From the NCBI RefSeq assembly GCF_025947365.1, contig NZ_CP110012.1, positions 2,976,001-3,040,000 on the forward strand: DNA of 64,000 bases, given 5' to 3'. The position numbers and the translations under genes were made by a program. Below the pieces are notes generated by a model. The model saw only the letters and a program-made list of their open reading frames with translations. It ran no database searches and was not told the origin of the DNA. This document shows, piece by piece, positions 8,095 to 38,390 of the stretch (its first letter is position 1; each line of letters begins with the position of its first letter). The stretch is from Flavobacterium sp. N502540 (GTDB lineage: Bacteria > Bacteroidota > Bacteroidia > Flavobacteriales > Flavobacteriaceae).

Positions 8095-8362
8095 AATTTA
8101 TTTGTTTGTTTGTGTTTCCTACTCATAAGGCTTTTCGGAATCCGCCTCGTTTTTTTGTAAGTGGGTTCTGACTCCACTGTTTTTGGTACATACAATATTA
8201 GATAAAATATGGTTTTTTAAAACGCGTATAAATACTTGTTTTTAAATTGATTACAATTTTTTAACAAGACAATGCTTTATTGTTTGAATTGCCGATAGTG
8301 CCCAATAGATCTGGGTGAAACTAACGGTGTAATTTTGGCAGAATAGATTTTAAGAGATGTGA

Positions 8363-8404
8363 AAAGAGTAAAGAGTAAAGAGTAAAGAGTAAAGAGTAAA
8401 GAGT
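8363..8404. repeat. Heptamer tandem repeat AAAGAGT x6
   Basis: Six perfect AAAGAGT units occur here, while the matching position in the second cassette copy (35547-35560) has only two, with identical flanks. This shows copy-number change by slippage since the duplication. It lies in the 485-bp gap 8095-8579, which otherwise holds only repeat-like sequence and no supportable gene. Confidence 0.95.
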
Positions 8405-8484
8405 GTCTCATAGAAACACATTCCTCTATTATAATGCTCTGCGTTTTATTAAAAGTGAAACGCCTTATTTTAGGCTGTAAAAGT

Positions 8485-8557
8485 CTATGTTTCTATGTGT
8501 TTAAACCATAGCCACAGAAAAAATCTGCGTGAAAATACTCCACGCATTGAAACATAG
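8485..8557. repeat. Imperfect inverted-repeat element (intergenic, dispersed type)
   Basis: CTATGTTTC (8485-8493) and GAAACATAG (8549-8557) are inverted arms around an inner hairpin GCGTG (8527-8531) / CACGC (8541-8545). The same element recurs at the start of cassette copy 2, and a longer relative with perfect 20-bp arms lies at 35424-35533. It sits just downstream of the LuxR-like gene (its 3' side on the minus strand), so it may also act as a terminator or stabilising structure. Confidence 0.6.
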
Positions 8558-8579
8558 TTTTTATAAGAAGAAAAGAATA

Positions 8580-9338
8580 TTAAATCAGTTTATTACTGGT
8601 GGCATAAGCAATGGCCTCAGCAATATTTCCCACCCCCAGCTTGGTGAATAATTTTCTCTTGTGAAACTTAATAGTATCAGCCGATACAAACATGCTATCA
8701 GCCATGTTGGCAATGGTAAAACCCCTGATAGAATACTGTAAAACTTCCTTCTCACGGCTGGTTAGTTCTATCTTTTTCAGCACCTTCCAGAAACTCCCCT
8801 CAAGGTCATAACTGTAGATCTTATTTTCTCCTTTTTTATAAATTTTAATATTCCCCGACTGCAATTCAGAAGAAAGCGAGATAATGCAAATCGATTTCCA
8901 GATTTTACCGTCATTGGTCAGGAAAACAGGAGTCAGTTTTTGATTCACCAAAAAAGTCTTTCCATTGGGATTTTTCAATCTAAAGTCATAGGAGATGGTA
9001 TGATTCAGGCGTTCTTCTACAGGAATGTTTTGATAAAAATCAAAACCTATAGTGTTGATTTTTAGTAATAAATCCAGGTCTTCTTTGACCACATACTTAA
9101 AATAAAAGGCATATCCAAGTTCCTGAACCTCTGCCGGAGTGTGATCACATAAGAATAATGGATTTTCGGACACATACTCAAACCCCTTTTTTTCGTAATC
9201 AATAATATAAATACTGCTGTAAGTTGTTCTGGCAAATGCTTTGACCAGTTCTAAATAATTTCCAAGTTTGTCTTTTTCATCTTCAGAGATCTTCTGAACG
9301 GTGTTGTTTGTGGAAAAAAAGTCGTTTTCAATTACCAT
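8580..9338 (-). CDS. PAS-LuxR family transcriptional regulator, copy 1
   Basis: This 252-aa protein has a C-terminal GerE/LuxR helix-turn-helix at about residues 186-250. It shows the typical LTSREKEVLQ start, GFTIANMADSMFVSADTIKFH recognition region and KLFTKLGV. The N-terminal part (about 35-165) looks like a PAS sensor: YIIDYEKKGFEYVSENP at the start and a K-x-W-x-x-x-C-I-I-S strand at the end. It is not the autoinducer-binding domain of classical LuxR, and no receiver-domain Asp pattern is present, so a small ligand is the likely input. It is transcribed away from the GNAT gene, with a palindromic operator candidate between them. Copy 2 (35751-36509) differs at very few residues, e.g. DK versus GR near residue 23. 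It probably controls the cassette and the NRPS operon. Confidence 0.88.
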   Translation of the reverse strand: MVIENDFFSTNNTVQKISEDEKDKLGNYLELVKAFARTTYSSIYIIDYEKKGFEYVSENPLFLCDHTPAEVQELGYAFYFKYVVKEDLDLLLKINTIGFDFYQNIPVEERLNHTISYDFRLKNPNGKTFLVNQKLTPVFLTNDGKIWKSICIISLSSELQSGNIKIYKKGENKIYSYDLEGSFWKVLKKIELTSREKEVLQYSIRGFTIANMADSMFVSADTIKFHKRKLFTKLGVGNIAEAIAYATSNKLI

Positions 9339-9487
9339 ATTTTAATAGTTTTTTAACAGGTTGTGAATATAGGAAAAATTGGAGATATGATGTTAAATTA
9401 ATTTTATTTCTATACGAATTTAACTTCATTTCAATAAAAATGATATTTGGGTTTTTGGCCGTTTTTTTTCTTCTAAAGTCCATTTTT

Positions 9488-9513
9488 AAAAACTACACTT
9501 AAGGGTAGTTTTT
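9488..9513. promoter_or_regulatory. Operator candidate 1, copy 1 (26-bp palindrome containing ACTAC-N8-GTAGT)
   Basis: Perfect 9-bp arms AAAAACTAC and GTAGTTTTT flank an 8-bp core centred on CTTAAG; 12 of 13 base pairs are symmetric. It lies in the divergent LuxR/GNAT spacer, 78 bp before the GNAT start. It is retained exactly at 36658-36683, although the neighbouring spacer has diverged. Size and symmetry suit a dimeric LuxR-type helix-turn-helix protein. Confidence 0.7.
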
Positions 9514-9591
9514 GATTAAAATACTGTAAACTAGTATTTTGTGTAATATGAAGCGTAAATTGTGGTGATAGTTTTGGAGAAAACAAACACT

Positions 9592-10278
9592 ATGAAACTC
9601 GCCAAAAACAACCACACCGCAATTAGTCGGAATGACATCTTCCGTATGTCAAAATTTGTAGTCACAGAAAACTTCAATCACCACTCTAATGAAGTTTTTC
9701 CGGGCCACTATCAAAAAGATATTGATGCCGTTTACAAAGAAGAAATGAAGTTCCTTGAAAACTCCAAAATATTCGCCTTCAAAAACGAATTGGGAGACTT
9801 TACCGGCACGATCAGAGTTCTAAAATGGGATTTTATTACTCCACTTCCTATTCAAAAAATGTTTGGGATCAACCCTTTTTTATGTGCAGAAGGAGATGCC
9901 ATCAATGAAATCTGGCACATTGGACGTTTTGCCATTAAAAAAGGTGTTCGTGATGTTAACCTGCTAAAAAAACTATTGGTTTGTGCCATTGCACCGGTTT
10001 GCAAACACAAAGACAATATGGCCTTTGCCGAAATCGATGCCAAACTGCTTCGCGTACTAACCCTAATGGGCATCAAAGCAAAAATTGTGGGCAAATCAAT
10101 CGAATACCTGGGATCAGAAACGATACCTGTATCGATGTCTTATAATGGTCTTATTACTTTTTACAACGAGAACAAACATTTAGTTACACCGGAAGATTTT
10201 GAGCTTTCTTCTGTAAAGGATAAACTACCCAATAAGGTAGTATTTAACGCTAACCAATTGAACTACACTTTGGTGTAG
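9592..10278 (+). CDS. GNAT-fold acyltransferase resembling LuxI/FeeM signal synthases, copy 1
   Basis: The ATG at 9592 is preferred to a GTG 30 bp upstream; it gives 228 residues starting MKLAKNNH. The order of motifs follows acyl-homoserine-lactone synthases. First comes an acceptor region with GDFTGTIRVLKWD, followed by LPIQKMFG. Next is NEIWHIGRFAIKKG (E106, W108, R112, F113), matching the LuxI W-E-x-S-R-F-A block. Last is a helix and strand pattern DAKLLRVLTLMGI leading to GKSIEYLGSETIPV, matching the LuxI C-terminal G-x-x-x-x-x-G-x-E region. Such enzymes transfer an acyl chain from acyl-ACP or acyl-CoA to an amino acid or SAM. The substrate cannot be read from the sequence. Pairing with a divergent LuxR-type regulator supports a signal-synthase role. 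An N-acyl amino acid synthase feeding the NRPS is the alternative. Confidence 0.65.
   Translation: MKLAKNNHTAISRNDIFRMSKFVVTENFNHHSNEVFPGHYQKDIDAVYKEEMKFLENSKIFAFKNELGDFTGTIRVLKWDFITPLPIQKMFGINPFLCAEGDAINEIWHIGRFAIKKGVRDVNLLKKLLVCAIAPVCKHKDNMAFAEIDAKLLRVLTLMGIKAKIVGKSIEYLGSETIPVSMSYNGLITFYNENKHLVTPEDFELSSVKDKLPNKVVFNANQLNYTLV
10224..10241. promoter_or_regulatory. Operator candidate 2, copy 1 (ACTAC-N8-GTAGT)
   Basis: This has the same 5-8-5 palindrome spacing as operator candidate 1, but inside the last 55 bp of the GNAT coding sequence. ACTAC is at 10224-10228 and GTAGT at 10237-10241. It is present identically in the second cassette. It may bind the same regulator to control the NusG-like gene and NRPS operon downstream. 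Confidence 0.5.
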
Positions 10279-10279: not shown

Positions 10280-10482
10280 AGCATTTGAAAACCTATATTG
10301 TAAATTTACTTCAGTAAAAATAAGTAGTTGGATTAGCAACTTTCAGATTTTTACAACACACTCAAAAGGAATCAAAATTTACCTTGAGAGTTCCAACAAA
10401 AACATCATTACCAAAATTACTTTAGAGTAAAAAAGGTAAAGCTATTAAACCAAAAAACGTATCTAAAAAAAATAACCATGTG

Positions 10483-10509
10483 ACTGGTAATAGCGCAGCT
10501 ATGTCCGGT
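10483..10509 (+). promoter_or_regulatory. Hairpin in the leader of the NusG-like gene, copy 1
   Basis: A 27-nt stem-loop has five terminal pairs (one G-U), a 2x2 internal loop, five further pairs (ATAGC/GCTAT) and a GCA loop. It ends 20 bp before the ATG at 10530. The whole 251-bp gap 10279-10529 is identical in the second copy (hairpin at 37653-37679), so conservation alone does not prove function. It holds no other gene. Confidence 0.45.
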
Positions 10510-10529: not shown

Positions 10530-11063
10530 ATGGATCGAAAACAAGGTTGGCATGTCCTTTATGTAAAGTACAGACATGAGAGTAAAGTCTACAAAGAATT
10601 AATGGAAAAAAAATTAGAAGCTTTTTTGCCTATGGCCACCAGCATTAGACAATGGAGTGACCGAACCAAGAAAATTGAAATTCCGTTATTTCCCAGTTAT
10701 GTTTTTGTAAACATTAAAAACAACAAAGACTTTCATGATGCTTTAAATGTAGAGAGCGGTTGTTCCTACTTGTCTTTCGGCAAAGAATACGGCAAAGTTT
10801 CCGAAGAAGAAATCGCTTATATCAAACTCTTTACCCAGGGAAAAGAGATCACCGATGTTCAAGTCGAATCGGCACTGCCAAAAATAGGCGATAAACTTAA
10901 AATCGAGCATGGTGAACTATCAGGTTTGGAATGCGAAGTTTTCAGAGTCGACAATCAGCACAGAATCAGTGTAAGATTAAGTTCATTGCGCCAGAATATA
11001 TCAGCGATAATACCTTTGTCGTATTTATCCAATCCCGAAGAAAACGTCTTTGCAAAGGCGTAG
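10530..11063 (+). CDS. Specialised NusG paralogue (UpxY/RfaH/LoaP-like antiterminator), copy 1
   Basis: This 177-aa protein has an N-terminal NGN domain (about residues 5-100), starting GWHVLYVKYRHESKVYKEL, with the conserved IPLFPSYVFVNI strand. A C-terminal KOW-type region follows (about 118-165), with IGDKLKIEHGELSGLECEVF. Housekeeping NusG assists elongation everywhere, whereas paralogues such as RfaH, Bacteroides UpxY and Firmicutes LoaP are recruited to single long operons and suppress termination. Its position directly before NRPS1, with terminator-like hairpins at 11131-11166 and 20655-20689, fits that role. The encoded protein is identical to that of the second copy at 37700. Confidence 0.88.
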   Translation: MDRKQGWHVLYVKYRHESKVYKELMEKKLEAFLPMATSIRQWSDRTKKIEIPLFPSYVFVNIKNNKDFHDALNVESGCSYLSFGKEYGKVSEEEIAYIKLFTQGKEITDVQVESALPKIGDKLKIEHGELSGLECEVFRVDNQHRISVRLSSLRQNISAIIPLSYLSNPEENVFAKA

Positions 11064-11130: not shown

Positions 11131-11166
11131 ACCCTCTGTAGTGAAATCAGGGGGTGGTTGTTTTTT
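11131..11166 (+). terminator. Terminator-like hairpin between NusG-like gene and NRPS1
   Basis: ACCCTCTG (11131-11138) pairs with CAGGGGGT (11148-11155; one G-U pair) around a 9-nt loop, followed by GGTTG and six T. It lies 68 bp after the NusG-like stop and 75 bp before the NRPS1 ATG, so it would have to be read through if NRPS1 is transcribed from upstream. Confidence 0.55.
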
Positions 11167-11240
11167 ACCCATACTACAAATCAAAATGGTACGATAACCT
11201 TACGTTTTCAGTATTTATTCAAATTATAAAAAGCAGACTT

Positions 11241-14200
11241 ATGAAAAATAATGTCACAAATGTTCAGAAATATATCTGGCTTGATCAGATACTTGACAAT
11301 GAATCACCAAAATACAATATTGGCGGTTATGCATTTATTAACGGAAGTGTTGATGTGGAGCGTTTTAAAACAGCATTCAATATTCTGATTAAAGAGAACG
11401 ATATTTTTTCTTTTGTTTTTGAAGAAAAGAGTGGTTTTCCTGTATATACACTTCAGGAAACAAACAGTGATTTGGCATTAACCTGCATAGAAGAGTCAGA
11501 TGAATTAAAAGCGATTCAAATGATAGAGAAAGATTTTATAGTGCCTTTTGATATAGAGAAGGATAAACAGCTTTATAAAATGTGGCTGATTCAAACAGCT
11601 CCTGAAACGTATATCTGGTATTCGAAACTTCATCACATTATAGCAGATGGATTTTCGTTTCAGTTGTTGTTTAACAAAGTGAAAAGAATCTATGAACAAT
11701 TAGGCACAGCCGCTGTATATGATGAGGTATGTATAGAGAAAAACAAAATGTCTTATGAGTCTTTTATAGCATTAGACAGTGTTTACAGAGCTTCAGATGA
11801 TTTTTCGAATGACAGAAAATTTTGGTTAGGACGTTATGAAAATTTACCTTCTTTGATTTATACCGGTACCAATAAATCGGCAAGTCACAGTAATATTGAA
11901 ATGGTACTTACCGAAGCAGAAAATGAAGCTTTATGGGCATTTGTAAAAGCAGAAAGACTAAGCATTTTTCACTTGTTGATCGGGTGTTTCTCTATCGTAT
12001 TGTCTAAATATTACAACAGAGAAGAAATTAATTTGGGGATGCCTATTTTAAACCGAAAAAATGCTGCCGAAAAAAATACATTCGGGCCATTTCTTAGCAT
12101 GTTGCCATTAAAACTTTCTTTGGAAACAACAGCAACCGTAAGTGATTTTATCAAAGAGATTAAAAGCACGCTTTTTATGTGCTACAGACATCAGCGTTTT
12201 CAGCAGGCCGACATCCTGCGAAATCTGCCACAGGAAACCTCAAAGCTTTATGATGTACGATTGTCATACGAGCGCATGCAATACGAATCTGAATTTTCGG
12301 GGAATAAAGCGAGCATACATCCATTGTCTAATGACAGTGAAGAAGATCCTATTTCTATTCACGTTTTTGAAGGGATCAATGGAGATCTTAGTTTTAGATT
12401 TGATATCAATGAAAAATATGTGTCAAAATTTGAAGCCAATCAGCTGATTGCTTCTTTCAGAAAAGTATTGACAGAATTACAGGAGACCAATCATACTGTT
12501 ATAGCCGAGATTGAAATTTCGAGCAAAGAACAGTTAGAAGAAATACAAGCAATTTCAAAAGGACCTGTTGTAAAAAGACCGGAACAGACTTTCTTAAATC
12601 TTTGGAATGCTGCTGTAGCGGGCTATAGTTCAAAAACAGCGGTTTCTTGTCAAACTAATTTTTTAACTTATGAAACCCTTGATGCACGAGCTACTATTAT
12701 AGCTTCCTATTTACAGTCCAGCGGCGTTAAAAAAGGAGATAAGGTAGGAGTGATGCTTTCGAGATCTGAAAAAAGTATTATTGGAATTTTGGCAGCCTTA
12801 AAAACGGGAGCTGTTTATGTACCTATTGATAATGCATATCCGGAGGAAAGAAAACACTATATTATAAAAGATGCCGGCTTAGGTTTTATCTTAACAGATT
12901 CATTTTCCAATTCTATTTCAGAAGACAAAGAATACAATATAGATCGTATTCCGGAAGAGCATAAAATAGCGAAAAACTATATTCCTGTTGCTTTGAAACC
13001 TGAAGATGAGGCTTATATTATTTATACTTCCGGTTCAACAGGAGACGCTAAAGGTGTTGTTATCAATCATGCTTCTTTATACGATTATGTGCTTACATTT
13101 GGCACTTATTTTAATCTTACTGAAGAAGATATTGTACTACAGCAGGCTTCTACTGCTTTTGATACTTCTGTAGAAGAAATTTTCCCGATTTTATCAGTAG
13201 GAGGGAATTTAGTGATTGCTCCTGATACAAAAGATTTTAATGAATTACTGAAAGATTGTGAGCGTTTCAGAATTACTTTATTGAGTACGAATCCTTTTGT
13301 ACTGCAATACCTTAATGACAATCATAAAAATTACAATTTTAATTTTAAAAACATTATTAGCGGAGGCGATACACTAAAACCACACCAGGTAGATCAGCTT
13401 ACCGCTAGTTATGATATCTACAATACCTATGGCCCTACAGAAAGTACAGTCTGTGCGACCTATTATAAAGTGAATGAAACAGACACTTCATTTCCTATCG
13501 GGAAACCAATTACCAATAGAGGAGTATACCTATTAGACGGAACAAAAATATTACCAAAAGGAGCCATTGGAGAAATTGGACTTTCCGGTTTAGGTTTGGC
13601 AGTTTCTTATCTCAATAAAAAAGAATTGACAGCTAATGCTTTTGTCCATATAAATGGAGAACGTATCTACAAAACCGGAGATTTAGGAAAGTGGAGCATA
13701 GACAATAATTTGATTTTTTATGGCAGAAAAGACAGTCAGCTTAGTTACAAAGGATATCGTATTGAAGTAGGAGAAATCGAACAGGCCATACAAAAAGTAA
13801 ATGCATACGTGGTAGACAGTTATGTGTGTATTAACGAAGTGGGAGGAATGCCAATTTTGATTGCTTATTTAGTAGCAAACGAGTCTTTTATAAATATATC
13901 TTCTTTAGTAATTGATTTAAAAACTCATTTGCCGGAATTTATGATTCCGACGCATTTTGTAATCTTAGATGCTATTCCTTTAATTCCTAACGGAAAAATT
14001 GATATTAAGAGTTTACCGGAACCTAAAACCGTAAACATCGCAGAAGCTGTTCAATTGCCGGTAACACCCGAAGAAAAAGAGATCGCCTCAATCTGGCAGG
14101 AATTATTACGCCTTGATCAGGTTGATGTAAACGTGAGTTTTTTCGAATTAGGAGGACACTCTTTATTGGCCAATCAGTTTATAAGCAGTTTACGTGATCA

Positions 14201-17200
14201 AAAAGGAATTGAATTGTCGTTAAGAGATTTTTACAAATCTCCTACTATCAAAGAAATCAGTGAACTGGTTCCTACTTTAAACAAAAAAGAAGTTCAAAAT
14301 ATTAAAGCTCCTGAGCAAGAGTTGTACCCGTTGTCTTTTTCACAAGAAAGATTATGGTTTTTAAATCAGCTGAATACTGCCGATACTTCTTATCACGTAT
14401 CAAGAGCAATGAAATTAAAAGGTTTTGTTGAGGTTGCCGCACTCGAAGAAACGTTTGCAAAACTGATCAAAAAACATGAGATTTTAAGAACTGTTTTTGT
14501 GAATCAGGAAGGTAAGCCTTATCAAAAAATACTACCTCCATTTGGATATACCATTCCAGTTGTAGATTATACCGGAATAAAAAATAAAGAAAATAAAGAG
14601 AAAGTAATTGCCGATAGTCTGGAAAGAATAGAGAGCCGTGCTTTTGAAATTGAAGAAGGACCGCTTTTTAGAATAGAATTATTAAAGTTCTCCGATCAGG
14701 AAAGTGTACTCGTATTTTGTGAGCACCATTTAATTTTAGACGGATGGACTCAGGGAATCTTATTTAGAGATTTCGTTGATATTTATAATGAATTAAAAAG
14801 AGATCCTGATTTTGAGGCAGAGAAGCCTGAAGTTACTTTTAAAGATTATGCTTATTGGGAAAGAAATAGTCTGAACGAAAGTGTTATCAGCGAAAAATTG
14901 AATTATTGGGAAAACAAATTTGAAGGTTTTTCTAACGGATTGTTGTTGCCTTTAGATTTCGAAAGAGAGGAAACTGCCGTGAAAAAAGGAGGTACGATAG
15001 AGCACGTATTTTCATTAGATTTTTCCGAAAAACTACGTCAGTTTTCCGAAAAACAAGACGTATCGTTGTTTATCACAATGCTCGCAGCTTTTAAAATAGT
15101 GCTGCATAAATTTAGCAATCAAACCGATATTTCTGTGGGGACAGCTGTTGCCAACAGACGTTATAAAGAATTTCAGGAAGTTTTAGGTATGATTGTAAAT
15201 ACGATTGCATTACGTACTACGTTTAGCAATGAAAATTCCTTAACGGAGGTACTTAACGAGGTGAAAGAAACCTGTCTGGATGCTTATTCTTATGATGATA
15301 CCCCTTTTGGAAAAGTGGTAGAAAGAATAAATCCGGAAAGGAGTTTAAATCTGCATCCGTTATTTCAATACATGTTTAGTTTTGTGAACGTTCCGGTACA
15401 AAGCATGTCTTTGCTGGATGCAGACATCGAAATTTTGAACGGGCACAATAAAACATCCCGATTTGATATTAGTGTAGTTATCAATACCGTATACGAGCAA
15501 ATCGATTCTTTAACAGATAATAAACCGGACAGAAGAATTTCGGTCGAATGGGATTACAATGCAGGGATCTTTAAGCATGCCACAATGAAACGTGTCCTGA
15601 AAGCATACCTTAAAGTTTTAGAGGCTCTTGTTGAAAACCCTGCGCAATCACTGGCAAGTTTGGATTACATTTCAAGTTCAGAGAAAGCGATCCTTCTGGA
15701 AGATTTTAGTACTTCAAAAACGGAAGAGGCAGTAGCAATTACAGCCGTTGAAATGTTCGAACAGCAAGTGGTGCAAACCCCTGATGCTGTAGCAGTAGTT
15801 TTTGAGAACAGATCGCTGACTTACAAAGAACTCCATGAGCTTTCCAGCCAGTTGGCACATTATTTATTGAATGAGTATGAGATAAAAACAGAAGACCTTA
15901 TTGCTGTAAAATTAGAGCGCAGCGAGTGGATTTACACCTCTCTTTTGGCCGTATTGAAGACCGGCGGTGTTTATGTTCCTATAGATCCGGGTTATCCGGA
16001 GCAAAGAATTGCTTATATCGAGCAAGACAGTAAATGTAAAGTTGTTATTGACGAGAAGTTATTGGCGAATTTCATCTCCCGTCAGGACAATTATCCAACC
16101 ACATTACCTGTTATTTCTTTGACTCCGGAGAACCTCATGTATGTCATTTATACCTCAGGTTCCACAGGACAGCCCAAAGGAGTAATGATCGAGCACAAAA
16201 GTTTGGTGAATTATATCCTAAACCAAAAAGAAGAATTCGGGTTTGATGCGTCCGATCGTATCGTACAATTCTCCAACAACGCTTTTGATGCGTCAATGGA
16301 ACAGATCTTTTTAGCTTTTTTTAGCGGAGCCACCCTGATAGGCGCTTCCAAAGAGCGTATTATTGATCTGACCGACTTTATAAACCTATTGAAAGAACAT
16401 AGTGTAACCCACCTGCATGCCACCCCGGGTTATTTGTCACATTTAGAGCATCTTTCTGCCTGCAAGACCCTAAAAAGAATCGTTGCAGCAGGAGAAGTAT
16501 GTCCAAAAAATCTGGCCGAAAAAATGATCAAAATAGCCGACTTCTACAACAAGTACGGCCCAACAGAAACCACCATTAGTGCTGTTATGGGAAGAGTAGA
16601 GCAGAGCGATCTGCAAAGAAATCTCATTCCAATTGGTAAACCCTTAAAAGACAGCCAGATCTATATCCTGTCCGATAACCTGGAATTACAGCCCATTGGT
16701 GTATTTGGAGAACTGTGCATCTCCGGAAACAGCCTGTCCAGAGGATACCTGAACAACCCTGAACTCACCGAAGAAAAATTCATCGCCCATCCCTTCATTG
16801 CAGGGGCCAGACTCTACAAAACAGGCGATCTGGGCCGATGGCTACCTGACGGCAGCATCGAACTCACAGGTAGAAAAGACCAGCAGGTAAAAGTAAGAGG
16901 CCACCGAATAGAACTTGGTGAAATCGAACATGCCTTATTAACACAAGACAGTATCAGTCAGTGTGTTGTGGCCGTACAAAACATAGAGGCAGAACCCGCA
17001 ATAGTAGCCTATGTGGTAGGAGAAAAAGAGCTTGACAAACAAGAACTTCGTGCCCAATTGAGCCAATATTTACCCGATTATATGCTTCCGGGTTACTATG
17101 TCCAATTAGACGCCATTGCATTAACCTCCCATGGTAAAGTGGATCTAAAAGCATTGCCTAAAGTGGATGTAAACGACAAGATTCAGCAAGAATATACCGC

Positions 17201-20582: not shown

Positions 20583-20654
20583 TTTATGGTGTTTACTATT
20601 TTTTACCCCAACCGTTTAATATAAAATTTAATCGCGAGTTTCATTTTATATCAT

Positions 20655-27330: not shown

Positions 27331-27392
27331 AATTGGACTGAGAGTTTCATTTTAATTTTGAACACCACTATCACTTACAGTTATGTTGCATT

Positions 27393-27427: not shown

Positions 27428-27539
27428 GAATCCGCTTACAGCATAAAATAAATAATTTGATACCACCACTTTACTAATACAATTGTGTCGCTCTTCTAAA
27501 AATTGCAGACGCACTCAAAGTTTACTTAAAAAAAATATC

Positions 27540-30500: not shown

Positions 30501-30848
30501 AAGATCGATAAAAAAGCATTGCCATCGGTAAGCACAGAGGATGTTATCCAACAGGAATATGTGGCTCCAACCAATGAAATTGAAGAAAAACTGGTAGCCA
30601 TATGGCAAGACATTCTAAAACTGGAGAAAATTGGTATTACGGATAATTTCTTTGAATTAGGAGGAAACAGTTTAAAAGCTACTGTTTTAATCAACAGAAT
30701 CAACAAGGCTTTTGATACGAGATTTTCTATTGAGGATTTGTATGAAACTCAGAATGTTATTGGAGTTTCGGAAAAACTGAAATTTATTGTGTTTCAGAAT
30801 GAATTGGCCGGAGAGTCGGTTGATGATTTGGATGAAATTATGATATAA
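27540..30848 (+). CDS. NRPS3: docking-C-A-T, one module (Ala?)
   Basis: The ATG at 27540 (MIENLINTLESLNIRLRVEN) is set by alignment with NRPS2 and NRPS4. The 1102-aa protein has a TubC-type docking domain (1-50), C HHIIGDG at 197, A YTSGSTG at 664 with code DLYNNALTYK, and T serine 1044. It ends with DDLDEIMI, nearly the same docking tail as NRPS1 and NRPS2. The A domain differs from the NRPS1/2 versions in a short stretch (FLETFKEAESISKFLPEV), so it is an older or partly converted copy. It adds one residue, probably alanine. Confidence 0.93.
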   Translation: MIENLINTLESLNIRLRVENGDLKINAPKGTLTPEIIEDIKAHKSRLLSLLSSSESIPKAEAKDFYTLTSSQYRLWTLSQFESGNSAYNLFAAFEFKGVLEFEKLAEAFQILVERHESLRTVFKEDEQGDLGQYIVPAAQYSGTLQFRDLSNATAEVLSNHANTLQRHAFDLEKGPLFIGEIVKTTADHHILMLNMHHIIGDGWSMGVLSREFITIYNELVIGNEIVLPDLPIQYKDYSEWQNSPSRQAVLEKSKALWLETFSGDLPVLELPSNKVRPKLKTYNGSGIKHSFSKKSNTALNTYAQQNGVTPFMVLMAGINGLLSRYTNSSDLILGTPVAGREHSDLENQVGLYLNTLAIRTTFEKTVSFQDLLQTQKETLLKAYSHQDYPLDSLVEALDLKRDTSRSVLFDVLVVFQNQQELLASESLRISGVEITPYKNLKKSFSKFDLTFAFAEFQGELTLDIEYNTDIYESEFVARLASHLETFLTEAIQNPEQKVATLNYLSEAETTQLLQDFNDTAVAYPKDDTMVDLFVAQAKKTPEQIALVTDTKSFTYQELDEISNELSHYLLSNYNLAVEDLVGVKLGRSEWLPIALLAVLKSGCAYVPIDPNYPAQRIEYIEQDSKCKITIDDSFLETFKEAESISKFLPEVSFNSDNLAYIIYTSGSTGKPKGVMITHQNAVAMLCWSQREFSDTDFDILYAVTSHCFDLSVYEFFYPLSIGKQIRLLANGLSIGDYIQSDKNVLINTVPSVIHTLIEKGTTFENAVGINLAGEAFPVSIANHFTNSGIAIRNLYGPSEDTTYSSYYRVEGTYENAVPIGKALDNTQFYVLSEELALQPVGVIGEICISGDGLSRGYLYQPELTAEKFITNPFNENTKLYKTGDLGKWLPDGTIAYIGRKDSQVKIRGHRIELGEIEQVLQSQEDIDQCVVVTATVNGDPVIVSYLVSIATIDKQQLRQSLSRELPEYMLPSYYVFLDKFPLTPNGKIDKKALPSVSTEDVIQQEYVAPTNEIEEKLVAIWQDILKLEKIGITDNFFELGGNSLKATVLINRINKAFDTRFSIEDLYETQNVIGVSEKLKFIVFQNELAGESVDDLDEIMI

Positions 30849-30956
30849 AGTTATCTCAATTCAGCCGATAGTATTTTTTGATGCTAACTAGTGAAATGAG
30901 AATATAATGATTCTGAAAAACAGAGATGCTTTTTAATTTATTTAAAAAATGATATC

Positions 30957-33900
30957 GTGATAAAAAATTTACTACATACGTTACAATCCTTGAATATCAG
31001 ACTTCGGGTAGAAAATGGGGATTTGAAAATTAATGCTCCGAAGGGGACTTTAACTACCGAAATTATTGAAGAGATTAAAGCACATAAAAACGAACTGACC
31101 AAATTACTTTCCTCTTCAGAATCAATTCCCAAAGCGGCAATAAAAGAATCTTATGCGCTTACTTCGTCTCAGCACCGTTTGTGGACTTTAAGTCAGTTTG
31201 AGACGGGTAATTCAGCCTATAATCTATTTAATGCTTTTGAGTTTAAAGGAGTGTTGGAATTTGAAAAGTTAGCCGAAGCCTTTCAAATTTTAGTGAAGAG
31301 ACATGAGAGCTTGCGTACCATTTTTAAAGAAGATGATCAGGGTAATTTGGGACAGTATATTGTTCCGGTGGCTCAATACAGTGGAGCTTTACAGTTTACA
31401 GATTTAAGTAATGCCACAGCTGAAGTCCTGAGCAATCATGCTAATACACTTCAAAGGCATGCTTTTGACTTAGAAAAAGGACCTCTTTTTATAGGAGAGA
31501 TCGTAAAGACAACTGCAGATCATCATATTCTAATGCTCAATATGCATCACATTATTGGCGATGGCTGGTCGATGGGGATATTGAGTAAAGAATTTATAAC
31601 GATTTATAATGAATTGGTTGTAGGGAATGAGATCCTATTATCGGACTTGCCTATTCAGTATAAAGATTATTCAGAATGGCAAAACAGTCCGTCCAGGCTA
31701 GCCATGTTGGAAAAATCTAAAGCGGTATGGCTAGAGACATTCTCGGGAGATTTGCCGGTTTTGGAACTGCCTTCCGATAAAACAAGACCGAAGCTTAAAA
31801 CCTATAACGGTTCGGGACTGAAGCATTCTTTTTCAAAAGAAATTACCACTCAGTTTAACACTCATGCACAGCAAAAAGGGGTAACACTTTTTATGCTTTT
31901 AATGGCCGGTATAAACGGAGTACTGTCCAGATATACGAACAACAGAGACATCATTTTGGGAACACCGATAGCGGGAAGAAAACACAGTGATCTGGAAAAT
32001 CAGGTTGGGTTGTATTTAAATACGCTGGCTATTCGAACCGCTTTTGAGGAAAAAACAAGTTTTGAAGAATTACTGAAGATACAAAAAGAAACCTTATTAA
32101 AAGCCTATTCTCATGAGGATTATCCTTTTGATAGTCTGGTAGAAGCGCTTGATCTTAAAAGAGATTTAAGCCGTTCGGTTTTGTTTGATGTTTTAGTGGT
32201 ATTTCAAAATCAACGGGAAATATTAGCGTCTGAAAACCTAACCATAAACGGTGTTGAAATAACATCCTACAAGCAGTTGAAAAGACCCTTCAGTAAATTT
32301 GATTTAACCTTTGCTTTCGCAGAGTATCAAGGAGAACTAAGCTTACATATCGAATACAACACTGATATTTACGAACCGGAATTTGTAGCACGATTGGCGG
32401 CTCATTTAGATACTTTTTTAACGAAAGCCATCCAATATCCGGAGCAAAAAGTAGCTACACTCAACTACCTGAGCGAAGCCGAGACCACACAATTGTTACA
32501 GGATTTTAACGACACAGCAGTAGCGTATCCTAAGGACAATACAATGGTTGACTTATTTGTAGCCCAGGCGAAGAAAACCCCGGAACAGATCGCTTTAGTA
32601 ACCGATACAAAAAGTTTTACCTACCAAGAACTCGATGAAATCTCTAATGAATTATCACACTACCTGTTAAGTAATTACAACTTAGCCGTAGAAGATTTAG
32701 TAGGAGTAAAACTCGGTCGCAGCGAGTGGCTGCCTATTGCTTTATTGGCGGTTTTAAAATCAGGATGTGCTTACGTTCCGATCGATCCCAACTATCCGAC
32801 ACAGCGTATCGAATACATCGAGCAAGACAGTAAATGTAAAGTTACCATAGACGATAACTTTATAACAACTTTCAAACAAGCAGAATCCATATCAAAATCA
32901 TTGCCGCAGATCACTTTTAGTTCGCAGCATCTGGGCTACATCATTTACACCTCAGGATCCACAGGGAAACCAAAAGGTGTTATGATCACCCATCAGAACG
33001 CTGTGGCCATGTTATGCTGGTCACAAAGAGAATTTAGCGATACTAATTTTGATATTTTATACGCCGTAACCTCACACTGTTTTGATCTGTCCGTTTACGA
33101 ATTTTTCTATCCTTTAAGTATCGGAAAACAAATACGTTTACTGGCCAATGGATTATCGATAGGAGATTATATTCAGAGCGACAAAAACGTACTGATCAAT
33201 ACCGTGCCTTCTGTAATTCATACCCTGATAGAGAAAGGAACCACCTTTGAGAATGCCGTTGGAATCAACCTTGCCGGAGAGGCATTCCCGGTGAGTATTG
33301 CCAACCATTTTACCAACTCCGGCATCGCTATTCGAAATCTGTACGGTCCTTCAGAAGACACCACTTACAGCAGTTATTACCGAGTAGAAGGAACTTATGA
33401 AAATTCCGTGCCTATTGGAAAAGCCTTAGACAATACCCAGTTTTATGTGCTCTCAGAAGAATTGGCCTTGCAGCCTGTAGGTGTAATTGGAGAAATCTGT
33501 ATCTCAGGTGATGGCTTGTCCAGAGGGTATTTGTACCAACCGGAACTAACCGCCGAAAAGTTTATCGTCAATCCATACAAAGAAGACAGCAAACTCTACA
33601 AAACAGGCGATTTGGGCAAATGGTTACCTGATGGCACCATCGCTTACATTGGTAGAAAAGACAGTCAGGTTAAAATCAGAGGACATCGTATCGAGCTCGG
33701 AGAAATCGAGCAGGTACTACAATCTCAGGAAGATATCGATCAGTGTGTGGTCATCACAGCAACTGTAAACGGAGATCCGGTCATTGTCAGTTATCTGGTG
33801 AGTACCGCAACTATTGACAAACAACAGCTTCGTCAATCACTATCGAGAGAATTACCAGAGTATATGCTGCCAAGTTATTATGTGTTCCTGGATAAATTTC

Positions 33901-34265
33901 CACTAACACCCAACGGCAAGATCGACAAAAAAGCATTGCCATCGGTAAGTACAGAGGATGTTATCCAACAAGAATATGTGGCTCCAGCCAATGAAATAGA
34001 AGAAAAGCTCGTTGCCATCTGGGAGGAAGTTTTACAAAAAACGAAAATAGGAGTAAGTGATATCTTTTTTGCGCTTGGTGGACACAGTCTGAAAGCCACT
34101 CAGGTAATTTCTAAGATTCAGAAAGAATTTAATATTAAAATTGAACTTAAGGAATTGTACAAAGAGCCAACAATCACCAATTTGGCCGGTTACATAGAAT
34201 CCATACAAATTTTAAACAAACAACAGTTGATTCCTTCTGTTGTTGGGGAAGAATTGGTTTTTTAG
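30957..34265 (+). CDS. NRPS4: docking-C-A-T, last module of line 1 (Ala?)
   Basis: It starts at a GTG (30957) in exactly the place where NRPS2 and NRPS3 have ATG (ATCATGATA versus ATCGTGATA), giving MIKNLLHTLQSLNIRLRVEN. Domains of the 1102-aa protein: docking 1-50, C HHIIGDG at 197, A YTSGSTG at 664 (code DLYNNALTYK), T serine 1044. The T domain (FFALGGHSLKATQV) and the C-terminus (...NKQQLIPSVVGEELVF) are unlike those of NRPS1-3 and lack the DDLDEI tail. This marks it as the end of the four-protein series. There is no thioesterase, reductase or terminal condensation domain, so release or transfer must happen elsewhere. Confidence 0.93.
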   Translation: MIKNLLHTLQSLNIRLRVENGDLKINAPKGTLTTEIIEEIKAHKNELTKLLSSSESIPKAAIKESYALTSSQHRLWTLSQFETGNSAYNLFNAFEFKGVLEFEKLAEAFQILVKRHESLRTIFKEDDQGNLGQYIVPVAQYSGALQFTDLSNATAEVLSNHANTLQRHAFDLEKGPLFIGEIVKTTADHHILMLNMHHIIGDGWSMGILSKEFITIYNELVVGNEILLSDLPIQYKDYSEWQNSPSRLAMLEKSKAVWLETFSGDLPVLELPSDKTRPKLKTYNGSGLKHSFSKEITTQFNTHAQQKGVTLFMLLMAGINGVLSRYTNNRDIILGTPIAGRKHSDLENQVGLYLNTLAIRTAFEEKTSFEELLKIQKETLLKAYSHEDYPFDSLVEALDLKRDLSRSVLFDVLVVFQNQREILASENLTINGVEITSYKQLKRPFSKFDLTFAFAEYQGELSLHIEYNTDIYEPEFVARLAAHLDTFLTKAIQYPEQKVATLNYLSEAETTQLLQDFNDTAVAYPKDNTMVDLFVAQAKKTPEQIALVTDTKSFTYQELDEISNELSHYLLSNYNLAVEDLVGVKLGRSEWLPIALLAVLKSGCAYVPIDPNYPTQRIEYIEQDSKCKVTIDDNFITTFKQAESISKSLPQITFSSQHLGYIIYTSGSTGKPKGVMITHQNAVAMLCWSQREFSDTNFDILYAVTSHCFDLSVYEFFYPLSIGKQIRLLANGLSIGDYIQSDKNVLINTVPSVIHTLIEKGTTFENAVGINLAGEAFPVSIANHFTNSGIAIRNLYGPSEDTTYSSYYRVEGTYENSVPIGKALDNTQFYVLSEELALQPVGVIGEICISGDGLSRGYLYQPELTAEKFIVNPYKEDSKLYKTGDLGKWLPDGTIAYIGRKDSQVKIRGHRIELGEIEQVLQSQEDIDQCVVITATVNGDPVIVSYLVSTATIDKQQLRQSLSRELPEYMLPSYYVFLDKFPLTPNGKIDKKALPSVSTEDVIQQEYVAPANEIEEKLVAIWEEVLQKTKIGVSDIFFALGGHSLKATQVISKIQKEFNIKIELKELYKEPTITNLAGYIESIQILNKQQLIPSVVGEELVF

Positions 34266-34295: not shown

Positions 34296-34335
34296 AAAAA
34301 AACAGTTACAGGAGTATTCTTGTAACTGTTTTTTT
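34296..34335 (+). terminator. Intrinsic terminator after NRPS4
   Basis: A perfect 15-bp stem (34296-34310 with 34321-34335; core ACAGTTACA / TGTAACTGT) has a 10-nt loop, with the T-run forming the 3' arm. It lies 30 bp after the NRPS4 stop. The A-run on the 5' side makes it possibly bidirectional. Confidence 0.88.
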
Positions 34336-34485: not shown

Positions 34486-34513
34486 AAAAACTACCCTTTA
34501 GGTTAAAAGGGTA
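34486..34513. promoter_or_regulatory. Regulatory site candidate upstream of the ThiF-like gene
   Basis: AAAAACTACCCTT (34486-34498) is an exact 13-bp match to one half of the 26-bp operator at 9488-9513 (reverse strand). The other half is not conserved. Instead an inverted repeat TACCCTTT (34492-34499) / AAAGGGTA (34506-34513) is formed. It ends 40 bp before the ATG at 34554, a position fitting promoter control. Confidence 0.5.
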
Positions 34514-34553: not shown

Positions 34554-35315
34554 ATGGATGATCGTTATTCAAAGAATAAACTTTATCTAAGCGATGAAGA
34601 GCAAGAGATTATAAAAGATTTTCCAATTTTGCTGGCAGGAAGCGGTATTGGAAGCGTAATTGCGGAATGTGCGCTGCGTTTTGGTTTTGAAAAAATCACT
34701 ATTGTAGATGGGGATCAGGTAGAGCGGTCTAATTTGAGCAGACAGAACTATACAGAAGATGATATCGATTCTAACAAAGTAGATGCTTTGGCAAGACGAT
34801 TGAAATCAATCAATAAAAATGCAGAAATCAATTGTATTGATTTTTTCCTGACTGTCGAAAACATAGGGGATCATATTAAAGGTCACAAAGCGGCAATTAA
34901 TACGCTGGACTTTTCTTCTCCGGTACCGCTGATATTCGATACCGCTTGTCAAAAGTTAGACATTCCGGTGCTGCATCCTTATAATATTGGATGGGGAAGT
35001 CTGGTAACTGTTATTGCCAGAGATGGCCTTCTTTTAAATGCGCTGGCAAATGGAGAAGAAGAATTCAATGAATCGACTATGATGGATTACGCTTCAAGTT
35101 ATTTGAGATTTTGGGGAAATCCGCAAAAATGGATGGACAGTATTATTGAAAAATACAAAATCGAAAAGGGCTGTCAGTCACCGCCACAAATGGCCATTGC
35201 ATCTTGGTCGGTAGCAGCTCTGTGTACTCATTTGCTTTTTAATATTGCGACCGGTAAAAAGTTCAAAAAATTCCCTGAGTTTTATTTATCCGCAATCATA
35301 GATGAAGATTTATAG
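34554..35315 (+). CDS. ThiF/HesA/MccB-like adenylating enzyme (E1 superfamily)
   Basis: This 253-aa protein has a Rossmann nucleotide-binding loop ILLAGSGIGS (about 25-34) and the E1 signature VDGDQVERSNLSRQ (51-64), including the Asp, Asn, Arg and Gln typical of ATP binding in ThiF, MoeB and MccB. The zinc-binding CxxC pairs usual in MoeB/ThiF are absent, and the protein lacks a rhodanese or other extra domain. E1-like enzymes adenylate a C-terminal carboxylate, usually of a small protein or peptide; MccB does so on a heptapeptide. Its place between the two NRPS operons, after the terminator and with an operator-like half-site upstream, suggests a tailoring or release step on the NRPS product, but this is inference. 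It may also be an unrelated neighbour. Confidence 0.82.
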   Translation: MDDRYSKNKLYLSDEEQEIIKDFPILLAGSGIGSVIAECALRFGFEKITIVDGDQVERSNLSRQNYTEDDIDSNKVDALARRLKSINKNAEINCIDFFLTVENIGDHIKGHKAAINTLDFSSPVPLIFDTACQKLDIPVLHPYNIGWGSLVTVIARDGLLLNALANGEEEFNESTMMDYASSYLRFWGNPQKWMDSIIEKYKIEKGCQSPPQMAIASWSVAALCTHLLFNIATGKKFKKFPEFYLSAIIDEDL

Positions 35316-35750: not shown

Positions 35751-36509
35751 TTAAATCAGTTTATTACTGGTGGCATAAGCAATGGCCTCAGCAATATTTC
35801 CCACCCCCAGTTTGGTGAACAATTTTCTCTTGTGAAACTTAATGGTATCCGCAGATACAAACATACTATCAGCCATGTTGGCAATGGTAAAACCCCTGAT
35901 AGAATACTGCAAAACTTCCTTCTCACGGCTGGTTAGTTCTATCTTTTTCAGCACCTTCCAGAAACTCCCCTCAAGATCATAACTGTAGATCTTATTTTCT
36001 CCTTTTTTATAAATTTTAATATTCCCCGACTGCAATTCAGAAGAAAGCGAGATAATGCAAATCGATTTCCAGATTTTACCGTCATTGGTCAGGAAAACAG
36101 GAGTCAGTTTTTGATTCACCAAAAAAGTCTTTCCATTGGGATTTTTCAATCGGAAATCATAAGAGATGGTATGATTCAGGCGTTCTTCTACAGGAATGTT
36201 TTGATAAAAATCAAAACCTATAGTATTGATTTTTAGTAATAAATCCAGATCTTCTTTGACCACATACTTAAAATAAAAGGCATATCCGAGTTCCTGAACC
36301 TCTGCCGGAGTGTGATCACATAAGAATAATGGATTTTCGGACACATACTCAAACCCCTTTTTTTCGTAATCAATAATATAAATACTGCTGTAAGTTGTTC
36401 TGGCAAATGCTTTGACCAGTTCTAAATAATTTCCAAGTCTGCCTTTTTCATCTTCAGAGATCTTCTGAACGGTGTTGTTTGTGGAAAAAAAGTCGTTTTC
36501 AATTACCAT
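35751..36509 (-). CDS. PAS-LuxR family transcriptional regulator, copy 2
   Basis: The frame continues 144 bp upstream, but the start is set at the ATG (36509-36507) that matches copy 1. The added residues would be encoded by the divergent, non-conserved spacer. The 252-aa product has the same PAS-like N-terminal region and C-terminal GerE helix-turn-helix as the protein at 8580-9338, and almost the same sequence. With identical DNA-binding domains, both regulators should bind the same operators, so the two NRPS operons are probably switched together. The sequence gives no sign of inactivation in either copy. Confidence 0.88.
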   Translation of the reverse strand: MVIENDFFSTNNTVQKISEDEKGRLGNYLELVKAFARTTYSSIYIIDYEKKGFEYVSENPLFLCDHTPAEVQELGYAFYFKYVVKEDLDLLLKINTIGFDFYQNIPVEERLNHTISYDFRLKNPNGKTFLVNQKLTPVFLTNDGKIWKSICIISLSSELQSGNIKIYKKGENKIYSYDLEGSFWKVLKKIELTSREKEVLQYSIRGFTIANMADSMFVSADTIKFHKRKLFTKLGVGNIAEAIAYATSNKLI

Positions 36510-36657: not shown

Positions 36658-36683
36658 AAAAACTACACTTAAGGGTAGTTTTT
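36658..36683. promoter_or_regulatory. Operator candidate 1, copy 2
   Basis: The palindrome is identical to 9488-9513 (ACTAC-N8-GTAGT at 36662-36679), 78 bp before the GNAT start. The sequence to its left has diverged between the copies while the palindrome has not, which supports selection on the site. Confidence 0.7.
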
Positions 36684-36761
36684 AATTAAAATACTGTAAA
36701 CTAGTATTTTGTGTAATATGAAGCGTAAATTGTGGTGATAGTTTTGGAGAAAACAAACACT

Positions 36762-37448
36762 ATGAAACTCGCCAAAAACAACCACACCGAAATTAGTCAG
36801 AATGACATCTTCCGTATGTCAAAATTTGTAGTCACAGAAAACTTCAATCACCACTCTAATGAAGTTTTTCCGGGCCACTATCAAAAAGATATTGATGCCG
36901 TTTACAAAGAAGAAATGAACTTCCTTGAAAACTCCAAAATATTCGCATTCAAAAACGAATTGGGAGACTTTACCGGTACCATCAGAGTTCTAAAATGGGA
37001 TTTTATTACTCCACTTCCTATTCAAAAAATGTTTGGGATCAACCCTTTTTTATGTGCAGAAGGAGATGCCATCAATGAAATCTGGCACATTGGACGTTTT
37101 GCCATTAAAAAAGGTGTTCGTGATGTTAACCTGCTAAAAAAACTATTGGTTTGTGCCATTGCACCGGTTTGCAAACACAAAGACAATATGGCCTTTGCCG
37201 AAATCGATGCCAAACTGCTTCGCGTACTAACCCTAATGGGCATCAAAGCAAAAATTGTGGGCAAATCAATCGAATACCTGGGATCAGAAACGATACCTGT
37301 ATCGATGTCTTATAATGGTCTTATTACTTTTTACAACGAGAACAAACATTTAGTTACACCGGAAGATTTTGAGCTTTCTTCTGTAAAGGATAAACTACCC
37401 AATAAGGTAGTATTTAACGCTAACCAATTGAACTACACTTTGGTGTAG
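36762..37448 (+). CDS. GNAT-fold acyltransferase resembling LuxI/FeeM signal synthases, copy 2
   Basis: This 228-aa copy of the protein at 9592 differs only near the N-terminus (HTEISQ for HTAISR, and one Lys to Asn about 30 residues later). All catalytic-looking blocks are the same, including IWHIGRFAI at about 107-115 and the C-terminal EYLGSETIPV. Both enzymes should therefore make the same product. It is followed by an identical 251-bp gap and the NusG-like gene, and probably shares a transcript with them. Confidence 0.65.
   Translation: MKLAKNNHTEISQNDIFRMSKFVVTENFNHHSNEVFPGHYQKDIDAVYKEEMNFLENSKIFAFKNELGDFTGTIRVLKWDFITPLPIQKMFGINPFLCAEGDAINEIWHIGRFAIKKGVRDVNLLKKLLVCAIAPVCKHKDNMAFAEIDAKLLRVLTLMGIKAKIVGKSIEYLGSETIPVSMSYNGLITFYNENKHLVTPEDFELSSVKDKLPNKVVFNANQLNYTLV
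37394..37411. promoter_or_regulatory. Operator candidate 2, copy 2 (ACTAC-N8-GTAGT)
   Basis: Identical to 10224-10241, inside the 3' end of the GNAT gene. Confidence 0.5.
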
Positions 37449-37449
37449 T
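37432..37449. promoter_or_regulatory. Operator candidate 3, copy 2 (ACTAC-N8-GTAGT)
   Basis: Identical to 10262-10279, overlapping the GNAT stop codon. Confidence 0.5.
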
Positions 37450-37652
37450 AGCATTTGAAAACCTATATTGTAAATTTACTTCAGTAAAAATAAGTAGTTG
37501 GATTAGCAACTTTCAGATTTTTACAACACACTCAAAAGGAATCAAAATTTACCTTGAGAGTTCCAACAAAAACATCATTACCAAAATTACTTTAGAGTAA
37601 AAAAGGTAAAGCTATTAAACCAAAAAACGTATCTAAAAAAAATAACCATGTG

Positions 37653-37679
37653 ACTGGTAATAGCGCAGCTATGTCCGGT
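37653..37679 (+). promoter_or_regulatory. Hairpin in the leader of the NusG-like gene, copy 2
   Basis: Same 27-nt stem-loop as 10483-10509, ending 20 bp before the ATG at 37700. Confidence 0.45.
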
Positions 37680-37699
37680 GACGAAAAAAACCAAATAAT

Positions 37700-38233
37700 A
37701 TGGATCGAAAACAAGGTTGGCATGTCCTTTATGTAAAGTACAGACATGAGAGTAAAGTCTACAAAGAATTAATGGAAAAAAAATTAGAAGCTTTTTTGCC
37801 TATGGCCACCAGCATTAGACAATGGAGTGACCGAACCAAGAAAATTGAAATTCCGTTATTTCCCAGTTATGTTTTTGTAAACATTAAAAACAACAAAGAC
37901 TTTCATGATGCTTTAAATGTAGAGAGCGGTTGTTCCTACTTGTCTTTCGGCAAAGAATACGGCAAAGTTTCCGAAGAAGAAATTGCTTATATCAAACTCT
38001 TTACCCAGGGAAAAGAGATCACCGATGTTCAAGTCGAATCGGCACTGCCAAAAATAGGCGATAAACTTAAAATCGAGCATGGTGAACTATCAGGTTTGGA
38101 ATGTGAAGTTTTCAGAGTCGACAATCAGCACAGAATCAGCGTACGATTAAGTTCATTGCGTCAGAATATATCAGCCATAATACCTTTGTCGTATTTATCC
38201 AATCCGGAAGAAAACGTATTTGCAAAGGCATAG
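37700..38233 (+). CDS. Specialised NusG paralogue (UpxY/RfaH/LoaP-like antiterminator), copy 2
   Basis: The 177 residues are identical to the protein at 10530-11063, although several third-codon positions differ from 37984 on. Synonymous drift with no amino-acid change indicates purifying selection on both copies. It lies 260 bp before NRPS5, the first gene of an operon of at least 25.5 kb, and its likely task is to keep RNA polymerase going through that operon. Since the proteins are identical, operon specificity would have to come from loading sites in the leaders. Confidence 0.88.
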   Translation: MDRKQGWHVLYVKYRHESKVYKELMEKKLEAFLPMATSIRQWSDRTKKIEIPLFPSYVFVNIKNNKDFHDALNVESGCSYLSFGKEYGKVSEEEIAYIKLFTQGKEITDVQVESALPKIGDKLKIEHGELSGLECEVFRVDNQHRISVRLSSLRQNISAIIPLSYLSNPEENVFAKA

Positions 38234-38390
38234 TTTTTAGATTTTCTTTTCAGTTAGATTATCGCCTCCTACATAATGGAGCGAATCATTAAAGTGATTT
38301 TTGTACTTGTTATAAAGTGTAAAAGATCTCTTATCTCAATCCTTTTTTACCACATCAAAATTTAGTTTTTACTACCTGGTAAATCATCAC

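Follow-up and report, generated by a model that had tools for sequence, protein, structure and literature searches.

A putative autoinduction cassette of Bacteroidota, built on ThiF, PAS-LuxR and putative LuxI-fold GNAT genes, stands twice before peptide synthetase operons in a Flavobacterium

Why do two long peptide operons of one bacterium begin behind nearly the same stretch of DNA? This question is raised by a region of 64,000 nucleotides from Flavobacterium sp. N502540 (NZ_CP110012.1, positions 2,976,001 to 3,040,000), which is called the window below. In the window, each of two nonribosomal peptide synthetase (NRPS) operons is preceded by one copy of a repeat that codes for a regulator with a PAS domain and a LuxR-type helix-turn-helix (PAS-LuxR), an acyltransferase (GNAT) and a NusG paralogue. 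The repeat probably represents a variant of a portable autoinduction cassette that occurs in Bacteroidota, the core of which consists of PAS-LuxR, GNAT and an E1-like ThiF adenylyltransferase. Across genomes, the core genes remain linked whereas the operon behind them varies, and three promoters carry a private palindrome.

Positions 8391-11071 and 35547-38241 of the window align by blastn on the same strand, in a single long alignment with 2608/2701 identities (97%), which bears out the near-identical direct repeats reported in the initial annotation. The left edges given there (8343 and 35527) are due to a separate exact match of 34 bp (8343-8376 and 35527-35560, from blastn of both regions). 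The right edges had been placed at the stop codon of the NusG paralogue; the stop codons are at 11063 and 38233, but the repeat extends 8 bp beyond. All three genes that had been named are present in both copies, and NRPS genes follow each. The PAS-LuxR gene is on the minus strand (copy 1, 252 aa, 8580..9338; copy 2, 35751..36509, 99.2% identical) and is therefore divergent, not co-directional with the operon. On the plus strand are the GNAT gene (9592..10278 and 36762..37448, 98.7% identical) and the gene for the NusG paralogue (177 aa, 10530..11063 and 37700..38233, 100% identical). For PAS-LuxR copy 2, the listed open reading frame (ORF) opens 144 nt upstream of the copy 1 start, and 35751-36509 was adopted; the GNAT ORF of copy 1 opens with GTG at 9562, and the ATG at 9592 is preferred. 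The genome (5,409,051 bp, one contig) has no GNAT matches other than the two copies in the window.

Is the trio a conserved block? Named genomes, among which the closest relatives of the window genome are Flavobacterium, were scanned with an alignment of 15 GNAT sequences, and the best 80 of 107 loci (L-numbers below) were taken, with genes called simply as longest ORFs and the downstream genes tabulated. The trio does occur together elsewhere, as proposed, in 16 of the 80 loci. Because these 16 are the only loci with an UpxY-type NusG paralogue, the trio was rejected as the conserved unit. A divergent PAS-LuxR adjoins GNAT in 75/80 loci (76 when L031, with a gap of about 960 bp, is included), the others being L086 (which starts inside GNAT), L091, L092 and L094. 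ThiF is directly beyond LuxR in 58/80 loci and further upstream within 10 kb in 8 more. In the window, this core member, which the trio omitted, is encoded once (34554..35315, plus strand; PF00899, 99.4 bits), beside copy 2 only and convergent with its PAS-LuxR gene; copy 1 has none. Of the 22 loci without adjacent ThiF, 21 were followed up (all except L062); in the 20 genomes accessible to a search, a ThiF match (E<=1e-5) is always present, with an identity of at least 50% in 19. The conserved unit is ThiF-LuxR-GNAT, and the NusG paralogue is optional, occurring mainly with NRPS operons (10 of 11 NRPS loci versus 6 of 69 others, Fisher p=4.9e-8; one of these six, L026, ends before its cargo). 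The GNAT is sparse, with matches in 10/298 other genomes of the family and 12/298 others of the genus (E<=1e-3), and in 11/394 other genomes of the phylum (E<=1e-10), one of them partial with a stop codon.

A palindrome of 16 bp, CTACMC-N4-GKGTAG, is the putative operator of this unit. Within the window, CTACMCNNNNGKGTAG is found at six sites with at most one mismatch, three per copy (0.12 expected). One is in the LuxR-GNAT gap (9493..9508, exact; copy 2, 36663..36678). The other two form a pair at the cargo promoter, in which an upstream palindrome with one mismatch (10225..10240 and 37395..37410) lies 38 bp before the box of the NusG-NRPS promoter (10263..10278, exact, overlapping the GNAT stop codon; copy 2, 37433..37448). 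All are given on the plus strand. When one mismatch is allowed in an 18-bp form, the whole 5.4-Mb genome has six places, all in the cassettes and four of them exact, and a reversed control pattern gives two; being palindromes, the two patterns match on either strand at every place. The 80 loci (1.50 Mb) contain 94 exact and 103 one-mismatch sites, where five shuffles that preserve base content only lead to an expectation of 0.4 and 3.4. As many as 194 of the 197 sites are in the promoter zones of ThiF, GNAT and the operon: 92 in the LuxR-GNAT gap, 73 at the GNAT end or in the cargo leader, 25 before ThiF and 4 before a GNAT gene without a called adjacent LuxR; 3 are elsewhere.

The spacing to the promoter is equally regular. 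Counted from the start of the operator that is nearest upstream of each gene, TAnnTTT begins at exactly 38 nt in 35/41 cargo, 23/25 ThiF and 34/65 GNAT promoters, and at 76 nt, one extra step of 38 bp, in 27 GNAT promoters; its mean count at other offsets is 0.05 for cargo and ThiF alike. Tandem operators (up to two mismatches) 38 bp apart form 34 pairs upstream of GNAT and 8 upstream of cargo. We take TAnnTTTG to be the known -7 element of Bacteroidota, which would put the operator at about -41, where LuxR-type activators take the place of the upstream promoter element. In the window, the -7 element TAAATTTA is at 10301..10308 in copy 1, 38 nt from the operator start, and at 37471..37478 in copy 2. 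ThiF has a degenerate box with two mismatches (34491..34506) and TAATTTTG (34529-34536) at exactly +38. This box sits behind a terminator-like hairpin with a T run that comes after NRPS operon 1 (34301..34330, plus strand, by eye).

Of 20 genomes with GNAT, 7 contain a strict pattern of operator plus promoter, at 11 sites in all, versus none of 20 GNAT-free genomes (p=0.008), and the control pattern has one place in the 40. Among these sites, two (genomes G259 and G248) are away from GNAT. They precede outer-membrane-type genes (L132, CarboxypepD_reg; L133, OMP_b-brl_3 and CarboxypepD_reg), a type that also occurs in several cassettes, and the circuit may thus reach remote genes in some species. 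At a third strict site (L125), no ORF of at least 60 aa was called just downstream.

The palindromes could be RNA hairpins or terminators and not DNA operators, as they can pair with themselves and as one of them overlaps the GNAT stop codon. This we hold to be extremely unlikely. No T run follows them in the window, the fixed 38 nt to TAnnTTT at three promoters puts them upstream of the inferred transcription starts, they form tandem pairs 38 bp apart, and they also precede the remote outer-membrane-type genes (L132, L133). Because the cargo palindrome is non-coding in L027, L031, L047, L054 and L099-L102, it is kept as DNA. The conserved C-terminal GNAT tail NY[ST][LF]V was considered as a protein motif or a ThiF substrate and was rejected, since the underlying palindrome stays, non-coding, where the ORF ends earlier.

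What does the unit control? Cargo classes were assigned by a rule of 60% coverage, which replaced looser first classes in which any ABC transporter matched. Among the 80 loci are 11 with NRPS, 19 with NHLM-type ABC exporters (both exporters in 18, one in L092), 8 with a LanB-type enzyme, 9 with a C39 ABC exporter without LanB, 6 with a Porph_ging/HTTM-type operon and 6 with DUF7005. The 21 outside any class include contig ends, and L032, with a 24% match to a C39 exporter, was left uncounted. The locus of Kordia periserrulae (L050) codes for NHLM_ABC1 (1072.6 bits, cut-off 853.3) and ABC2 (866.7 bits, cut-off 709.4). The cargo of L058 matches TIGR03891 (179.6 bits, cut-off 48.45), and an NHLP leader among the checked cargo proteins scores 49.9 bits, just under the cut-off of 50.9. 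In L055, L056 and L061, strings of ORFs of 60-63 aa, possibly precursors of ribosomally synthesized and post-translationally modified peptides (RiPPs), stand after an outer-membrane gene and ahead of LanB-type genes. Most assigned loci join the switch to pathways for secreted peptides whose chemistries are unrelated, an argument against a tailoring role of ThiF and GNAT.

The GNAT is probably LuxI-like in its fold. Its AlphaFold2 model (pLDDT 82) has FeeM, RpaI, BjaI, LasI and TofI as the best structural matches. It has no Pfam match at E<=1, and thus none to the N-acyl-homoserine lactone (AHL) synthase family PF00765; the match to TIGR03694 is weak, and no relative by sequence was found among solved structures at E<=10, in a single-sequence or a profile search. 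The designation as a LuxI-like GNAT thus probably holds for the fold and not for the Pfam family, and that the enzyme is a signal synthase is something we infer, the protein being outside the PF00765 profile. A search of the own genome for the canonical LuxI family gave no match, but control genomes were equally silent.

The PAS-LuxR assignment could be substantiated, the LuxR part by profile and the PAS part by fold. The C-terminal GerE domain (PF00196) scores 55.1 bits (cut-off 23.5), which makes the protein a LuxR-type regulator. The sequence profiles PAS_3 and PAS_9 stay below the cut-off (15.6 bits, cut-off 25.6), and the structural model is closest to 3CLO, then to VqmA and to many PAS domains. 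Identity to the structural matches listed, VqmA included, is at most 20%.

ThiF belongs to the E1/ThiF enzymes by its PF00899 profile, and G29, G31, G33, D52, R63, Q64, K75 and D119 are invariant in 33 sequences. The Gly-rich loop and the D, R, Q and K residues presumably include the catalytic ones. PDB entries 9EGB, 9EGC and 9EGD contain a close relative (367 bits to the window ThiF), so this family is under study by another group. No paper on these entries was found in the literature searched, which covered titles and abstract openings and did not extend to preprints and most subscription papers; a published account of the system is conceivable. Our genome also has a cassette-free ThiF paralogue (253453-254193, 57% identical). 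This paralogue (L119, 8454-9200) adjoins a gene that resembles DsbD by eye.

These properties also fit feed-forward control by a metabolite. The ThiF/GNAT product would then be intracellular or part of the peptide and be sensed by PAS-LuxR, in a real loop that has no released signal. PAS domains sense many things. The PDB relatives of ThiF include MccB and PaaA, ThiF-type enzymes with roles in pathways to peptide products. We nevertheless consider metabolite control unlikely, because these genes accompany cargo of unrelated kinds (NRPS, NHLP RiPPs, LanB-type, C39 export and DUF7005) and because the receptor is the best-conserved part, with a mean pairwise identity of 70% for PAS-LuxR versus 54% for GNAT.

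How does the NusG paralogue enter the circuit of the NRPS loci? It is a member of the UpxY family (NF033644, 133.8 bits, cut-off 100), which agrees with its description as a NusG paralogue. Before its gene is an element resembling ops, TGTGACT-N7-GCGNAGC (10479..10499 and 37649..37669, plus strand). This ops-like element was found in all 16 NusG loci and in both window copies, including the variants TGGGACT, TGTGATA and GTGGAGC, and was absent from the 64 loci without NusG (1.21 Mb). In 15 of the 16 loci, the distance from its first base to the start codon of NusG is 41-56 nt (L032, with its NusG start not settled, is outside this count), and L030 has a second copy in tandem. The Aquimarina locus L032 has an additional element (7899-7919) before ThiF. 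There are three exact matches in the own genome, those of the two cassettes and one beside another UpxY gene, just downstream of it and before a gene for a UDP-glucose/GDP-mannose dehydrogenase. Two further places have one mismatch, and the control pattern has none.

In 150 genomes of the genus, the own one included, 30 ops-like sites were found in 26 genomes versus 2 control places, and at 25 of the 30, a UpxY gene on the same strand is no more than 1.5 kb away. The five UpxY-linked sites that were tested all stand in front of polysaccharide genes, four before UDPG_MGDP_dh and one before Poly_export. Among the unlinked sites, L160 is before Poly_export and L140 is before isocitrate dehydrogenase. 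In the 18 cassette sites, GCGNAGC is closed by A-T 11 times and by G-C 7 times; at 23 UpxY-linked sites of the genus, the closing pair is G-C in 19, A-T in 3 and A-C in 1. Overall, the pair is A-T or G-C in 40/41 UpxY-linked sites, and it is formed in only two (L139, L160) of the five unlinked ones; the elements of L153 and L162 match those of L028 and L027, and these sites have probably been counted twice. Compensatory changes of this kind argue for a hairpin, be it of DNA or of RNA. The element thus combines conservation in the leader with covariation in a hairpin, as in the RfaH-ops type, and from this conserved leader element we predict that the UpxY paralogue works on the leader of the operon that encodes it. 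A different UpxY-like gene (L117; G000, 5287626-5288120) is interrupted by a TAA codon and lacks an ops-like element within the 3.5 kb examined; it is possibly decayed.

Recruitment might proceed via an RNA hairpin and not via one in the non-template DNA, a possibility to which we give tentative but real weight. Bacillus LoaP offers a precedent, the element is in the inferred leader, and it folds weakly as RNA and DNA alike. On the other side, GCGNAGC forms an unusually stable DNA mini-hairpin. RfaH loads at ops via a hairpin in the non-template DNA, as described in the part of Zuber 2018 (PMC5995543) that deals with this step.

The repeat could also reflect a plain recent duplication of the front end of an NRPS operon, devoid of special regulatory meaning, to which its 97% identity and a long identical tract would point. 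The 97 differing columns of the alignment are unevenly spread, with 43 of them in two bins (9291-9590) that contain the LuxR/GNAT intergenic region, and none in six bins of 150 bp (9891-10790). About 900 bp (9891-10790 and its counterpart in copy 2) are identical with more divergent DNA on either side, which looks like gene conversion. Plain duplication seems very unlikely to us, since neither copy has lost its operators or its ops-like element and since Flavobacterium sp. ZT3R18 (L027, L028) has the same two-copy layout, one copy without ThiF and the other with ThiF after NRPS genes. The ZT3R18 copies resemble each other more than they resemble the window copies, a pattern which suggests that the copies are maintained and co-evolve.

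For the autoinduction cassette, the following sequence of events can be proposed. At low basal transcription, little GNAT and ThiF product would be made. ThiF and GNAT together would produce a small acylated signal. Occupied PAS-LuxR would bind the palindromes, being an activator in place of a -33 element, and would raise GNAT and ThiF in a positive feedback. It would also fire the promoter of the peptide operon (in copy 1 at 10301-10308). RNA polymerase would then pause at the ops-like site (10479-10499), where the NusG paralogue from the same transcript would load, as RfaH does at ops, and the polymerase so loaded would read through an operon of more than 23 kb. Gene order, palindromes, spacing, leader element and the covariation in the hairpin are observed; the signal, its release, binding, activation and antitermination are what we infer. 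Quorum sensing, in the sense of a released signal and a density-dependent response, is likewise only a prediction, based on which genes are present and on how the feedback is wired. As the two copies have the same operators and share one ThiF, both NRPS operons would be expected to fire jointly. The portable and duplicated module of the initial annotation is thereby upheld, and its one-signal control of two operons is the natural reading, given the same control sites in each copy. The chances are about even that the full proposal is correct, namely that ThiF and the LuxI-fold GNAT make an acyl signal read by a highly conserved PAS-LuxR, as phylum-level quorum sensing with a chemistry of its own and a plug-in switch for peptide-antibiotic operons, and that the NRPS version adds an elongation factor which loads at an ops-like hairpin, a general signal for UpxY recruitment in flavobacteria.

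Several points weigh against it. The DUF7005 loci are an exception to secreted-peptide cargo, and all six lack the operator; the only other operator-free locus is L086, which is cut. Some of the 19 remote ThiF matches may be of the cassette-free paralogue type. In the window, the GNAT promoter is a poorer fit, with its TA at +39.

Each part resembles a known system: LuxI/LuxR, VqmA, E1/ThiF, UpxY and RfaH-ops. As in LuxI/LuxR of Proteobacteria, an acyltransferase with a GNAT fold that is probably like that of LasI, TofI and BjaI is encoded beside a regulator with a LuxR-type helix-turn-helix, the activator would replace the upstream promoter element at a palindromic box, and positive feedback is predicted. 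Unlike that system, the GNAT has no PF00765 match, the PAS domain of the receptor is of the VqmA/3CLO type, an E1-like ThiF is included and the promoter is of the Bacteroidota type. VqmA, the quorum receptor of the VqmA-DPO system of Vibrio, shares the PAS domain and the LuxR-type helix-turn-helix; to our knowledge, it has no linked LuxI-fold gene or ThiF. The N-acyl amino acid synthase FeeM is 12% identical to the cassette GNAT, and we know of no linked PAS-LuxR/ThiF module. The UpxY antiterminators of Bacteroides capsule operons, TaA and LoaP are likewise NusG paralogues encoded in the long operon that they are thought to serve, and LoaP and TaA already link such paralogues to antibiotic operons, as stated in a passage of PMC7819879. 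In contrast to these, the cassette NusG is coupled to an autoinduction-type switch and has a defined leader element. As with RfaH and ops, the leader contains an element that can fold into a short hairpin when the DNA is single-stranded; the flavobacterial sequence differs. A passage of Wang 2020 (PMC7593976) reports RfaH in 1 of 1,908 Bacteroidota genomes and states that it is unknown how NusG paralogues encoded in operons are recruited. In the literature searched, we met neither a description of the ThiF-PAS-LuxR-GNAT unit nor the combination, the operator, the promoter geometry or the flavobacterial ops-like element.

Some flavobacteria show density-dependent behaviour without a known signal. 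Kordia algicida OT-1, which has the module (L037), is such a case: protease release is faster with spent medium, AHL was not detected, yet the spent medium was active, and the factors are called unidentified in the relevant part of PMC3117869. A later paper, in the section concerned, adds nutrient control and still regards quorum sensing as possible (PMC10565126). As the module points to candidate genes for a synthase, to a receptor and to an operator of 16 bp, the question of a density signal becomes testable by a reporter, and the cassette may be a chemical-signalling system overlooked in Bacteroidota. The ops-like element, common to NRPS cassettes and to the UpxY loci of polysaccharide operons, is a concrete candidate for the recruitment site, and the operator offers a handle for mining genomes for peptide natural products.

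The remaining features of the window can be given briefly. NRPS operon 1 (11154..34265, plus strand) has four genes (11154-20582, 20854-27330, 27483-30848 and 30957-34265) with the Pfam domains Condensation, AMP-binding and PP-binding. Its modules (15634-33751) share segments of 93-100% identity, those at 19062-19191, 25810-25939 and 32745-32874 being 100% identical, which suggests recent recombination between modules. NRPS operon 2 (38494..63348, plus strand) comprises 38494-49614, 50973-55796 and 57055-63348, together with genes for a C-domain protein (49661-50926) and a TauD-type oxygenase (55927-56967). At the left edge of both repeat copies (8343-8520 and 35391-35681) are short repeats, among them the exact 34-bp one and others that are TCTATGTTTCTATGTGTTTAA-like, also inverted; these are possible recombination points. 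Upstream of copy 1, two small proteins of similar appearance and unassigned function are encoded (7095-7586 and 7765-8094), and ORFs of similar size are near the equivalent place in L026 and L029. Two large proteins of 510 and 1165 aa are encoded on the minus strand (1403-6439); the former has no Pfam or NCBIfam match, and only this one of the two was searched.

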